Shown in pieces: positions 36,201 through 63,145 of a stretch of 64,000 nt of DNA. How positions within the stretch are numbered: position 1 is the stretch's first letter; each line of letters begins with the position of its first letter. This DNA comes from Archangium violaceum (GTDB lineage: Bacteria > Myxococcota > Myxococcia > Myxococcales > Myxococcaceae), in assembly GCF_016887565.1 (NCBI RefSeq), contig NZ_CP069396.1, positions 1,825,001 through 1,889,000 of the forward strand. The letters run 5' to 3'. A program made the translations under genes and the position numbers. The notes below the pieces were generated by a model. The model was given only the letters and a program-made list of their open reading frames with translations, was not told where the DNA came from and did no database searches.

Positions 36201-36340
36201 AAAGTCGTCGAGCCCGAGGCCCGGGCGTTCGAGGTCCGGTTCGCCTGAACGCCTGGAGGGCACGCGGCATGTGCCCGGGATTGTTCAACTTTTCCTGGAG
36301 GCCATTGCAGTCCGCACGCAGCGGGACTAGTCATGCCGCG

Positions 36341-36465
36341 AAACGCCGAGTCCCGCCGTCAGCGGGAGCGGGGGACCCAGGTTCGTAGGGGCGAGTCGCT
36401 CAGTACCGAGCGTAGGGCAGGTTCCCAGCCCGAGTCCGTCAGCTAACCCCGCAGGCGTCGAGGAG
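36341..36465 (+). ncRNA. c-di-AMP riboswitch (ydaO/yuaA type)
   Basis: The stretch directly before kup has the conserved ydaO-yuaA blocks in order: CGCCGAGTCCCGCC, GCGGGAGCGGGGGACCCAGG, GGGGCGAGTCG and CCGAGTCCGTCAGCTAAC, then GCAGGCGT. The kup ribosome site GAGGAG follows within a few bases, so ligand binding could hide it or end transcription early. c-di-AMP shuts off potassium uptake genes in other bacteria, which fits the kup target. Confidence 0.9.
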
Positions 36466-36472
36466 AACACCG

Positions 36473-38611: not shown

Positions 38612-39110
38612 AAGGCGCTGTACGAATCCTTTGAGTGATGCCTGGAGGCTACCCATGGATCCATAGGGTGAAAGTCCCGAAGCGGTAGAAGGTCGAGGCC
38701 GCATAGCTTGGATGGCACCGACAGAGGAGACCCCTGCGGTGAAGCCCATCGACAAAGCCCCGGAAAGCGGGGTGAGCGAGTGAGCGGGCCGCAACGACGA
38801 GTGAACACCCGGTAGAGGCCTCGTGATTCGTTAACTCCGGATGCCGAGCCGACTCAAAGTTCTCAAGCGGGAGACACTCGAAGCCGCCTACCTGGAGGCC
38901 CGCCGCAAAGGCGGTGCCCCTGGGGAAGACGGAGAGACGTTCGAGCGCATCGAGGAGACGGGCCGGGAGGAGTTCCTCGCGCGGATAGTCGAGGAATTAC
39001 AAACTTCCAAAGGAGGGGGGCAAAGTGCGCGTCATCTCGATTCCCTCGATACGGGATAGGACCGTGCAGGGAGCACTCCGCCTGATATTGGAACCCATCT
39101 GCGAGCCTGG
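38612..39110 (+). pseudogene. Degenerate group II intron with reverse transcriptase fragment
   Basis: The 5' part (GGGTGAAAGTCCCGAAGC and the following structured stretch) resembles the domain I region of bacterial group II introns. From 38841 the frame reads LKRETLEAAYLEARRKGGAP, the start of a group II intron RT/maturase. In the G-run near 39011-39022 the frame shifts to KVRVISIPSIRDRTVQGALR, and the RT ends at about 39105. Most of the RT, maturase domain and domains V-VI are missing. Confidence 0.7.
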
Positions 39111-59204: not shown

Positions 59205-59402
59205 GGCTTATCCTCGTATGCGCCGTTCCAAGAAGGATGTCGCTGGTCGCCCTTACGACTCGGCACGGGGACAAGTCCGTGTGACATGAAGGTGCAGGTT
59301 TAGCTCCCCTCGCGGGGCGGCGACGCCTCGGTGAGCTGCAGACCGTGCGCCACTTTTAACACACGCGGCGCGGCGATCAACGGCTCCACTCCCTTCCTGA
59401 AC
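59205..59402. other. Intergenic with a possible minus-strand remnant
   Basis: Minus-strand frame ending at 59300 reads GVEPLIAAPRVLKVAHGLQL and TEASPPREGS; it looks coding but has no start or domain. Nothing else seen. Confidence 0.35.
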
Positions 59403-60861: not shown

Positions 60862-60930
60862 GTGTTCATGGAACCGCCACGCGCACCGCGCCCGCGAGCC
60901 CTGGCGCTCCCCGAGACGGTGTCCCGAGAC

Positions 60931-60946
60931 GGTGTCAAAGGACTCG
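60931..60946 (+). repeat. REP-like motif, copy 3
   Basis: GGTGTCAAAGGACTCG, followed by AAACGAG; identical to 62240 over 23 bases. A partial extra copy (GAGACGGTGTCC) lies at 60913-60924. Marks the 5' break of the next reading frame. Confidence 0.65.
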
Positions 60947-60954
60947 AAACGAGC

Positions 60955-61214
60955 TCTCGTTGCCGGCGGGCGCCGGCCGGTGGGCGTGGCTCAACGTGCG
61001 TTGGAGCCAGGTGAAGTCCGTCTTCCTCGAGAAGCGTACCCAGGAGGACAGCGAGGGGGACACGGTGACGTTCTGGTGCCCCCCCTCGTGCTCTCCGCGC
61101 CCACGGGGGCCCACCCGAGTCACCTGCTACACGGAGCGCGGCCCCGCGACTTGGGTCCCGTACCCGGGGTGCGGCATGATGCGGGAGCTTCACGCTGCGG
61201 AGGTCGCCCGATGA
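60955..61214 (+). pseudogene. 5'-truncated gene of unknown function
   Basis: An open frame with good codon use: GRWAWLNVRWSQVKSVFLEK, DTVTFWCPPSCSP, TRVTCYTERGPATWVPYPGC and MMRELHAAEVAR. Four Cys suggest a zinc or disulphide site. Its TGA overlaps the next ATG (ATGA), so it was translated in an operon. The start is lost at the REP-like motif. Confidence 0.5.
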
Positions 61215-61459
61215 AGACGCTGCTCGCCGTGCTCCAACTCACCGTGCTCTCGCAGGTGCCCGCGCGGGACGCGGAGAAGCCGGCCCCGGAGCCCCCGGCC
61301 GAGAAGAAGCAGGTGTTCATCGACTTCGAGGATGACTCCATCGAATTCGACCTGCTCCCACCCGAGCCGCGCTGCACCCTGCATCGGAGGTGGGGCCCGC
61401 TGGTGCGGATCCGCGAGGACTTCGCCGACAAGGTGATGCAGTCCGTGGCCGAGATGTAG
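61211..61459 (+). CDS. Small exported protein of unknown function
   Basis: An 82-residue protein with signal peptide MKTLLAVLQLTVLSQVPA, then a Pro/Glu/Lys linker and an acidic-to-basic domain (FIDFEDDSIEFDLLPPEPRC, RRWGPLVRIREDFADKVMQS). The ATG overlaps the TGA of the truncated frame upstream and the MerB-like gene starts 12 bp downstream, so they are probably cotranscribed. The FDDDxI-type pattern is common in short myxobacterial secreted proteins; role unknown. Confidence 0.7.
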   Translation: MKTLLAVLQLTVLSQVPARDAEKPAPEPPAEKKQVFIDFEDDSIEFDLLPPEPRCTLHRRWGPLVRIREDFADKVMQSVAEM

Positions 61460-61471
61460 CGAGGGGGCACC

Positions 61472-62152
61472 GTGACGGAGAGGCTCGATCAGGACGGCCG
61501 CGTGCGGCTCGCGGTGTATGGCCATTTCATCGACACGGGGGCTCGGCCCGGAGTGGGGGACCTGTCCCAACGGCTGGGCCTGTCGCCGGAGGCGGTGAAG
61601 GACTCCTTGCGCCGCCTCGGGAGCCAGCGCGTGCTGGTTCTCGAGGAGGGCTCCACGGACATCCGGATGGCGATGCCCTTCTCGGGCGTGCCCACGGGCT
61701 ACCGCGTGGAGACGCCGCTGGGAGGCTGGTGGGCCAACTGCGCCTGGGACGCGCTGGGCATCGCCGCGATGCTCCAGGTGACCGCGCGGGTGGAGACGCG
61801 GTGCGAGGACTGTGGTGACGCGCTCACGGTGAGGGTGGAGCAGGAGCGCCTCACGAGGAGCGAGGGCGTCATCCACTTCGCCGTTCCCGCGGCGCGCTGG
61901 TGGGAAGACATCTGTTTCACGTGAGCGACGATCCTCCTCTTCCGGTCGGAAGAGCACGTACGCCGCTGGTGTGACTCCCGAGGCCGGGAGCCCGGGGCCA
62001 TCATCTCGCTGGAGCAGGGGTGGGCGCTCGCCCGTGCCTGGTATTCGGACCGGCTCCAGCCCGGCTGGCGCCGCAAGCCCGCGGCCGAGGTCGAGGCCGT
62101 CTTCCAGTCCTGCGGTCTGAGCGGACCCTTCTGGCGGCTCACCGTTCCGTGA
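61472..62152 (+). CDS. Putative selenoprotein: MerB-like organomercurial lyase with in-frame TGA (Sec151)
   Basis: A 226-codon MerB-type alkylmercury lyase frame starting at GTG 61472 (GAGGGGG upstream) and ending at TGA 62150-62152. In E. coli MerB the catalytic residues are Cys96, Asp99 and Cys159, with Cys117 structural. Here Cys90, Asp93 (NCAWD) and Cys111 line up at a constant offset of six, and TGA codon 151 falls at Cys159. After the TGA the frame continues with typical family sequence: ATILLFRSEEHVRRWC, ISLEQGWALARAWYSD and GLSGPFWRL. Codon use is unchanged. A fdhF-like hairpin follows the TGA. The N-terminal ~80 residues form a winged-helix domain (VGDLSQRLGLSPEAVKDSLR). If TGA is a stop, the product is a 150-residue inactive fragment. 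Confidence 0.75.
61937..61954 (+). promoter_or_regulatory. Putative bacterial SECIS element
   Basis: CTCTTCC-GGTC-GGAAGAG: a perfect 7-bp stem with a GGTC tetraloop. Counting the TGA as bases 1-3, the loop is at 23-26; in the E. coli fdhF SECIS the GGUC loop is at 22-25. SelB recognises the GGU of such a loop. Confidence 0.75.
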
Positions 62153-62203: not shown

Positions 62204-63145
62204 GTGCCAGCGTTGAAACTCGCAATCGTCCCCCGAGACGGTGTCAAAGGACTCGAAACGAGGGACGCGAGCGAGAACGAGACCTGGCGTGGACGGGTGA
62301 ACCCACTGGCCTCCGAGTCTTTCCGAGGAGTTGCGGCTGGCCCGAGGGGTGCATCGACCTCGCGGATTGTACGGAGGGGAGGGGGATGGGCAAGCTCACA
62401 CTTCCACCTGCTGGTGTGGGCACGGGGTGCCGCGCTCGCTGGCTTCATGCAGTACCTGAGAGCCAACCTCTCCAAGAAGGTGGGGAGGTTGGTGGACTGG
62501 AGTGGAGGCTTCTGGGAGCGGCGCTACTCAGCGGAGCCGGTGCTGGACGACGAGGCACTGGTGGGCCGGTTGCGCTACGTGCTGGCCCATGGGGTGAAGG
62601 AAGGCCTGGTGGAGAGGAGTGCCGAGTGGCCGGGACTCACGTGTCTGCCGCAGCTGCTGGGGCCGGCGAGGCGACTGTTCCAGTGGTTCAACTGGACGAG
62701 GCGCTGGAGCAAGAGGGGGAGCGAGGGGTGGGCAGCGGGGGAGGGGAGATTCGCCGAGGAAATTGCCGAGCCAGTGGAGTTGGAGGTGGCGCCACTGCCG
62801 TGCTGGGAAGGACTGGGGGAGGAGCAGAGGCGGCGCGCGGTGCGGGGACTCGTGGAGGGGGTGGAAGCCGAGGCTCGCGCACAGGACAAGCCCGTGCTGG
62901 GAGTGGGGGCCGTGAGGGCACAGCACCCGCATACCCGGCCCGAGCACCTCAAACGGAGTGCTCGGCCGTTGGGGCATGCCTCGACGCGCCAGGCATTGAA
63001 GGAGTTGCGTGAGCAGTACCGGGCCTTCGTCGCGGCGTTCCGAGAGGCGGCGGCACGGTGGATGCGAGGGGATTTCTCGGCCAGGTTTCCGCTCTTCTCT
63101 TTTCCGCCGTGCGTCGTGCCGTGTCGCGTCACTCGAATTCTCTGA
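62204..63145 (+). pseudogene. RAYT (REP-associated tyrosine transposase), N-terminally damaged
   Basis: Y1 transposase-like protein. It keeps the HFH-type motif SSHFHLLVWA, then FMQYLRANLSKKVGRLVDW, FWERRYSAEPVLDDEALVGR, LRYVLAHGVKEGLVER, WPGLTCLPQLLG and FQWFNWTRRW. The first ~60 residues of the normal domain (including the usual start) are replaced by unrelated frame across the REP-like motif, with a probable frameshift near 62390, so activity is doubtful. The C-terminus looks complete. RAYTs move or maintain REP sequences. Confidence 0.75.
62240..62255 (+). repeat. REP-like motif, copy 4 (left end of RAYT unit)
   Basis: GGTGTCAAAGGACTCG, just upstream of the RAYT frame. Inverted partner at 63134-63149. 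Confidence 0.65.

Follow-up and report, generated by a model that had tools for sequence, protein, structure and literature searches.

In the organomercurial lyase MerB, Cys96 and Cys159 bind the metal and Asp99 protonates the leaving carbon. In fdhF of E. coli, the selenocysteine (Sec) insertion sequence (SECIS) follows the UGA at a distance of about a dozen bases and is a short hairpin whose apical loop is of the GGUC type. The subject of this study is a gene at 61472..62152 on the plus strand of a 64,000-nucleotide stretch of the Archangium violaceum genome (the whole stretch is hereafter the window), in which features of both systems were found. With a rough probability of 0.78, this gene is read here as encoding a MerB-family protein in which a UGA, located at the catalytic Cys159 column, is predicted to be decoded as Sec, and which likely cleaves carbon–metal bonds such as C–Hg.

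MerB-type selenoproteins appear as table rows in three reviews (PMC9312934, PMC13188914 and PMC7435645). The rows of two of these list a MerB-like selenoprotein, which the later one (2026) names SaoL, with the motif CU, and whose SAO genes it places together in one operon, while the selenoprotein table of the third contains an 'Organic mercuric lyase MerB2'. The subfamily described here is not found in those table rows. 'MerB' is also absent from the main texts of PMC2398784 and PMC5029168, which the 2022 review cites for its row (their supplements lay outside the search), and term searches of PMC12013277 and PMC8318568 returned nothing on MerB. The parts of a merB diversity survey (PMC8261052) that deal with residue screening describe homologues screened for Cys96, Asp99, Cys117 and Cys159, with variants at 99 and 117.

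The window gene starts with GTG at 61472 and ends with a TGA at 62150–62152, which gives 226 residues when the in-frame TGA at 61922..61924 is taken as Sec (U151). An earlier, sequence-only reading of this DNA had proposed a single frame running through this TGA for 75 further codons to a second TGA, and these coordinates were confirmed. The Pfam MerB model (PF03243, gathering cut-off 27 bits) scored 109.8 bits through the TGA compared to 65.1 bits for the part upstream of it, and the part after the TGA is therefore MerB sequence. When a profile of 14 family members was aligned to solved MerB structures, with positions counted on the alignment, Cys90 (61739..61741), Asp93 (61748..61750) and Cys111 (61802..61804), all on the plus strand, fell on MerB Cys96, Asp99 and Cys117 at a constant offset of 6, and the TGA fell on Cys159, as had been claimed from the letters. 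The full-length protein is predicted with high confidence to adopt the MerB fold, with a predicted local distance difference test (pLDDT) value of 96. By Pfam score and by predicted fold the protein belongs to the MerB superfamily. The canonical residue set of Cys96, Asp99, Cys117 and Cys159 is incomplete, the Cys159 column being a TGA; if this TGA is Sec, the selenium analogue sits at the Cys159 position.

Species genomes were scanned with patterns taken from upstream of the TGA, and of the 99 related stretches returned, the best 80, from 77 genomes, were kept. The codon at the Cys159 column was TGA in 80 of these 80 loci and never TAA or TAG. Asp was likewise found at the Asp99 column in all 80, Cys at the Cys96 column in 79 (TGA in one), and Cys at the Cys117 column in 67 (Asp in 13). 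The residue just before the TGA is Thr in the window protein (TU) and mostly Thr, otherwise Asn or Ser, in its relatives. By NCBI names, the loci belong to Actinomycetota (22), Chloroflexota (14), Acidobacteriota (13), Verrucomicrobiota (9), Gemmatimonadota (7), Planctomycetota (7) and Calditrichota (2), with one each from Thermodesulfobacteriota, Sysuimicrobiota, Krumholzibacteriota and candidate division KSB1, and two unplaced. In the protein database that was searched, the entry for the window gene (P0002) is a 150-residue piece that stops before the TGA. The search yielded 889 relatives, and among the 120 listed, 101 end exactly one residue before the TGA column, 18 read through it (Cys 11, Gly 2, Trp 2, Ala 2, Arg 1), and the remaining entry is irregular. 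Homologues carry TGA or Cys at this column, with few others; the sequence-only reading had proposed this comparison as a check. A tree of 121 rows, built by a quick method, shows Sec mixed in among Cys and other residues, and 13 changes are counted for Sec, at least 5 of them forced by starred branches; long branches meet in this tree, and it does not show the direction of change. Within the window's own phylum, Myxococcota, MerB was found in 5 of 195 genomes, four with TGA and one with Cys at the column. The five other genomes of the same genus that were listed have no MerB, and the gene was therefore probably acquired horizontally.

Downstream of the TGA, at 61937..61954 on the plus strand, lies a SECIS-like hairpin with a perfect 7-bp stem, CTCTTCC/GGAAGAG (arms 61937–61943 and 61948–61954), and a GGTC loop (61944–61947), separated from the TGA by 12 nt; the perfect stem, the loop and a distance like that in the fdhF SECIS had already been noted from the letters. 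The hairpin core CTTCCGGTCGGA is unchanged in 77 of 81 loci (the 80 and the window), and the whole 14-mer is kept in 64 of 81. This 14-mer, CTTCCGGTCGGAAG, occurs a single time in the window, where 0.05 occurrences are expected with one mismatch allowed. All 19 Cys-form loci examined lack TTCCGGTCGGA, and TGA and hairpin recur together in relatives from other phyla. The stem overlaps the codons for Leu/Phe-Phe-Arg-Ser-Glu-Glu in the C-terminal part of MerB, and the choice of codon there is narrow: Arg is CGG in 78/80, Ser TCG in 80/81, Glu GAA in 68/81 and Phe TTC in 80/81, compared to 400/1223, 291/748, 259/910 and 422/573, respectively, elsewhere in those genes. This comparison indicates that the hairpin codons are fixed more tightly than the protein requires and that selection acts on the hairpin at the RNA level.

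The pairing itself is maintained as well. In the pair test, 94.3% of 560 pair cells could pair. Neither this percentage, nor the covariation score, nor the number of cells with changes on both sides was reached in any of 500 shuffles or in any slid control. An Arg CGG to Trp TGG change, which would break the closing pair, is accompanied in 6 of 7 cases by a silent TCG to TCA change that restores it, while TCA was found at 0 of 100 CGG/CGA sites (Fisher p 4e-9; 113 Sec sites, six with other codons set aside). This covariation may represent a single event, since the six TCA sites belong to the same subfamily. Another compensatory change, A-U replacing C-G, was found in L096, and the first base of the Leu/Phe codon and the third base of the later Glu codon form C-G 48 times, T-A 31 times, C-A 8 times and T-G 7 times, counted over the 94 sites at which these letters occur. 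The covariance check that had been proposed with the sequence-only reading thus finds covariation in a conserved hairpin. The proof of the hairpin is, on these data, comparative and not a matter of single-sequence folding. Compared to the fdhF SECIS, the window hairpin has a similar loop and distance, but a different stem sequence.

The decoding machinery is present in the window's genome: selA (575 bits), selB (328 bits over positions 1–581 of 581), selD (379 bits) and a tRNA-Sec with the anticodon TCA were all found. The selD gene (L135; genome positions 9518168–9519094, minus strand) is itself a selenoprotein gene, with its TGA in the context TELSHCAG-U-AAK, which we take to be the usual Sec/Cys site of SelD. 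UGA at a Cys column, a conserved hairpin and the selA, selB, selD and tRNA-Sec genes, by which a bacterial selenoprotein is judged from sequence, are all found for this gene. Absence of the machinery, or a TGA standing as an isolated nonsense mutation with no conserved hairpin, had been named beforehand as results that would speak against Sec; the machinery is there, and the TGA and hairpin are conserved together. In Actinomycetota, SelB occurs in 15 of 17 genomes with a TGA-type MerB, compared to 163 of 279 others (Fisher p 0.019), where the 17 carriers are the TGA-marked rows without G381, whose TGA row is a 48-residue piece, and without G454, whose rows are mixed, and the column was checked in fetched loci only. 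Such co-occurrence is weak as proof and was set aside as such, because SelB is common in Actinomycetota anyway, being found also in 16 of 23 genomes whose MerB matches are all free of stops. The A. violaceum genome further contains two tRNA-Sec-like genes 22 kb apart (L009:6915–7013 and L010:9984–10079; genome positions about 5182915 and 5204985), which share 92 identical bases to just beyond the 3' end and differ in the 5' acceptor part; in sequence, this repeat looks like a remnant of an island integrated at tRNA-Sec.

The comparison with SaoL shows what is new and what is not. Like the window protein, SaoL is MerB-like with a TGA at the same column, and the SaoL model NF040728 matches 44 of 48 members of the present family at E <= 0.001 (best 4e-16). 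However, the window protein scores 44.6 bits against a SaoL cut-off of 140, lacks the CU motif in having Thr instead of Cys before Sec, and has a different hairpin sequence; its gene has no conserved neighbours, whereas the 2026 review places the SAO genes in one operon. Two of 395 genomes pass the SaoL cut-off, and their loci (L139 and L140) have a TGA at the Cys159 column, after Cys, and Cys, Asp and Cys at the MerB 96, 99 and 117 columns. Sec at the Cys159 column is therefore not unique to the window family; the review passages on SaoL do not assign its Sec to a MerB column. The sequence-only reading had announced a new selenoprotein: MerB-like selenoproteins are already known as a kind, SaoL being listed in reviews, and what is new is a very widespread variant among them, a subfamily that is, by its sequence features, separate from SaoL. 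The MerB of plasmid R831b (PDB 3F0O, 1S6L) has the fold and the Cys96, Asp99 and Cys117 columns in common with the window protein, and differs in having Cys159 where the window gene has UGA, in an identity of 18–21% in fold alignments and in the mer operon that the window gene lacks. The window protein also remains below the MerB equivalog model NF009710 (41.9 bits, cut-off 193). MerB2 (PDB 5C17) has Cys at the TGA column and Ser at the Asp99 column.

One of the 80 main-family loci, L037 from a Desulfobacterales genome (G211), has TGA at both the Cys96 and the Cys159 column. The SaoL-model search that covered the 395 genomes, all from the phylum of G211, gave matches in 52, and 30 loci were read. 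In 20 of these, both catalytic columns hold TGA (L145–L154, L156, L157, L159 and L161–L167, to which L037 is added); in four, two of which are SaoL, TGA stands at the Cys159 column alone, and six have Cys at both. The double-Sec loci fall into two types of ten each: type 1 has Glu at the Asp99 column, for example WFAQ-U-AFE ... U-STMNFFRSEEH, and type 2 has Asp there, for example YAA-U-AVD ... F-U-KESVFFRSEEHA. Each TGA of the 20 loci has its own hairpin. After the first TGA, type 1 has GCUGGC-loop-GCUGGC (GCUAGC in L162), which is in the lowest-energy fold in 10/10, and type 2 has GCCCUU-CGUGC-AAGGGC or its G-U variant, which the lowest-energy fold contains in 8/10 (not L149 and L163). After the second TGA, 14 of 20 have UUCC-GGUC-GGAA as in the window and six the compensated UUCU-GGUC-AGAA. 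In L037 the second hairpin is UUCC-GGUC-GGAA, while the first is unlike both types. The type 2 codons CCC, TTC, GTG and GGG are fixed in 10/10, compared to 37%, 58%, 38% and 30%, respectively, elsewhere in the genes, and the type 1 bias is less complete (TCG 8/8, CTG 9/10, GTC 7/10). Four double-Sec proteins score above the Pfam MerB cut-off (76.7, 54.9, 115.8 and 49.8 bits) and none of the four above any NCBIfam cut-off. One of the double-Sec proteins, modelled with 25 rows, is predicted to have the MerB fold (pLDDT 92.6), and again 11 MerB chains were the sole matches with E <= 0.001.

No family is common to more than 3 of 18 double-Sec loci as a neighbour. A MerR-like or MarR-like gene, read from translations, lies directly upstream in L174, L172 and L183 and perhaps provides metal-responsive control. 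Two further loci, L143 and L144, have TGA at the Cys159 column only and score below the SaoL cut-off (contexts AYT-U-PLINFF and HSL-U-RKMVF); they perhaps represent further subfamilies. A two-Sec MerB was not described in the parts of the literature covered by the search, including PMC9312934, PMC13188914, PMC7435645, PMC8261052 and PMC11639659, and this extension of MerB seems undescribed, though Haft & Gwadz 2023 and Haft & Tolstoy 2025 may mention these relatives.

The genomic setting of the window gene provides little in the way of partners. Among open reading frames (ORFs) around 81 loci, no family was common to more than six loci, and within 2.5 kb none to more than two, in a survey based on crude ORF calls of at least 70 residues and on loci that contig ends often truncate. 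Of the mer families, MerA was searched; it passed its cut-off in 3 of 51 genomes, and the window's genome is not one of these. With neither MerA above cut-off in this genome nor neighbour genes common to the 81 loci, the gene shows no sign of a mer operon. The small gene upstream (61211..61459, plus strand), which the sequence-only reading had placed 12 bp away as a possible part of the system, is indeed there; it resembles CglF (46.6 bits, cut-off 90), and on this resemblance and the lack of a conserved neighbour it was rejected as a partner. The absence of recurrent neighbours, the scarcity of MerA and the CglF-like nature of the upstream gene together show that a mercury-resistance operon is not the setting.

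An exact 31-nt direct repeat (60923–60953 and 62232–62262, starts 1309 bp apart), which occurs nowhere else in the window, flanks the CglF-like gene and the selenoprotein gene and may mark how the segment moved. An ORF at the second copy (62204–63145), possibly decayed, has no Pfam family at E <= 0.01 and shows what we take to be a partial resemblance to a REP-associated transposase. A phage origin was rejected, as a scan of viral contigs contained no relative, and a plasmid origin was also considered: 35 plasmid records match, all below 60% identity among the matches listed. Elsewhere in the window, Rfam matches were obtained for a c-di-AMP riboswitch (36334–36472), a group II intron D1-D4 (38662–38799) and a COG3860 RNA (59292–59345, minus strand).

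Several observations weigh against a Sec-decoded organometal lyase. Two of the five pair-test measures are unexceptional (both-side-changed pairs reached by 34/500 shuffles, further pair types by 73/500), and 22 of 80 loci leave pair 16-33 open. The window hairpin folds on its own with a z of -1.21, 24 of 200 shuffles folding equally well, and its stability is only modestly raised over synonymous recodings (mean z -1.16, 23/81 in the best 5%, window -0.37). The hairpin region has no Rfam match up to E = 10, a search that is uninformative for a hairpin so short. SelB is above cut-off in 38 of 50 TGA-form genomes (50 of the 77 behind the 80 loci); of the other 12, one is without a SelB match at E <= 1e-50 and the rest have fragments or lower-scoring matches, partly EF-Tu-like. 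G041, a TGA-form genome of the window's phylum, is without a SelB match at E <= 1e-60. Gly, Trp, Ala or Arg occupies the column in 7 of the 121 tree rows. The relatives with these residues are P0017, P0025, P0034, P0043, P0076, P0105 and P0118; Trp, Gly and Arg codons are one base from TGA, and some may therefore be Sec relics after loss of decoding. Finally, the scarcity of MerA leaves a classical role in mercury resistance without support, and the substrate may be something other than mercury.

The last point feeds the alternative of greatest weight, which is a possible reading, though one we consider less probable than the main reading: a MerB-fold selenoprotein with another task, in which Cys90 and Sec151 would form a metal or metalloid trap or a redox pair, or the enzyme would be a lyase for organometals of tin, lead or arsenic. 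It gains from the 48 of 51 genomes without MerA above cut-off, the absence of conserved neighbour genes, the score of 41.9 out of 193 bits for the MerB equivalog and the naming of SaoL as an organometallic, not a mercury, lyase. The invariant Asp at the Asp99 column, which supplies the proton in MerB, would however be needless for mere binding. A very improbable reading is that the UGA is the true end, leaving a 150-residue product followed by a decaying remnant. This is how the 101 truncated database relatives are annotated, and the part before the TGA already reaches 65.1 bits, but the part after it remains MerB-like across ten named phyla and KSB1, its codons are fixed at the nucleotide level, no other stop occurs before the last dozen aligned codons (except in L037, with TGA at a catalytic Cys column) and the codon itself is TGA throughout, never TAA or TAG. 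A nonsense mutation or sequencing error in a single strain, for which the gene's solitary occurrence in its genus might speak, has practically no probability left, being refuted by the same TGA in all 80 loci from 77 other genomes and in three further genomes of the window's phylum.

The window gene product is thus almost certainly a selenoprotein, and the protein is a likely carbon–metal lyase, at somewhat better than even odds. Frame, column, covarying hairpin and decoding genes are read from sequence, and from them Sec insertion is predicted: the hairpin 12 nt past the UGA would recruit SelB with Sec-tRNA, and the ribosome would insert Sec and finish the predicted 226-residue MerB fold. For the chemistry, we infer metal binding, cleavage and substrate by way of MerB. 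The U151 selenolate and the Cys90 thiolate would bind the metal of the organometal, and Asp93 would hand a proton to the leaving carbon. When selenium is absent, the product would end at 150 residues, ahead of the active-site residue. No mer operon would be needed, the gene working by itself.

On a broader view, which we hold to be evenly poised, the MerB fold would be a platform where one, and in places both, of the catalytic thiolates became selenolates, with a widespread one-Sec enzyme (159) and, in Desulfobacterota, a two-Sec enzyme (96 and 159, each with its own SECIS). Together these would amount to a hidden, mer-operon-free and selenium-dependent breakdown of organometals such as methylmercury in soils and sediments, which current gene surveys would record as broken merB genes or overlook. 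Proteins truncated at the UGA in databases would fail the Cys159 screen described in the parts of the merB survey noted above (PMC8261052), and yet such genes occur in Actinomycetota, Chloroflexota, Acidobacteriota, Verrucomicrobiota, Gemmatimonadota, Planctomycetota and others. Gene calling would accordingly be corrected for the listed relatives that stop just before the UGA.

Selenium binds mercury very tightly, and a catalytic selenolate that still turned over would therefore be instructive. The double-Sec relatives permit a comparison of Cys/Cys, Cys/Sec and Sec/Sec within one fold. If methylmercury is cleaved, part of environmental demethylation would be selenium-dependent and lie outside mer operons, and a likely selenium-dependent breaking of carbon–metal bonds may have gone unnoticed.
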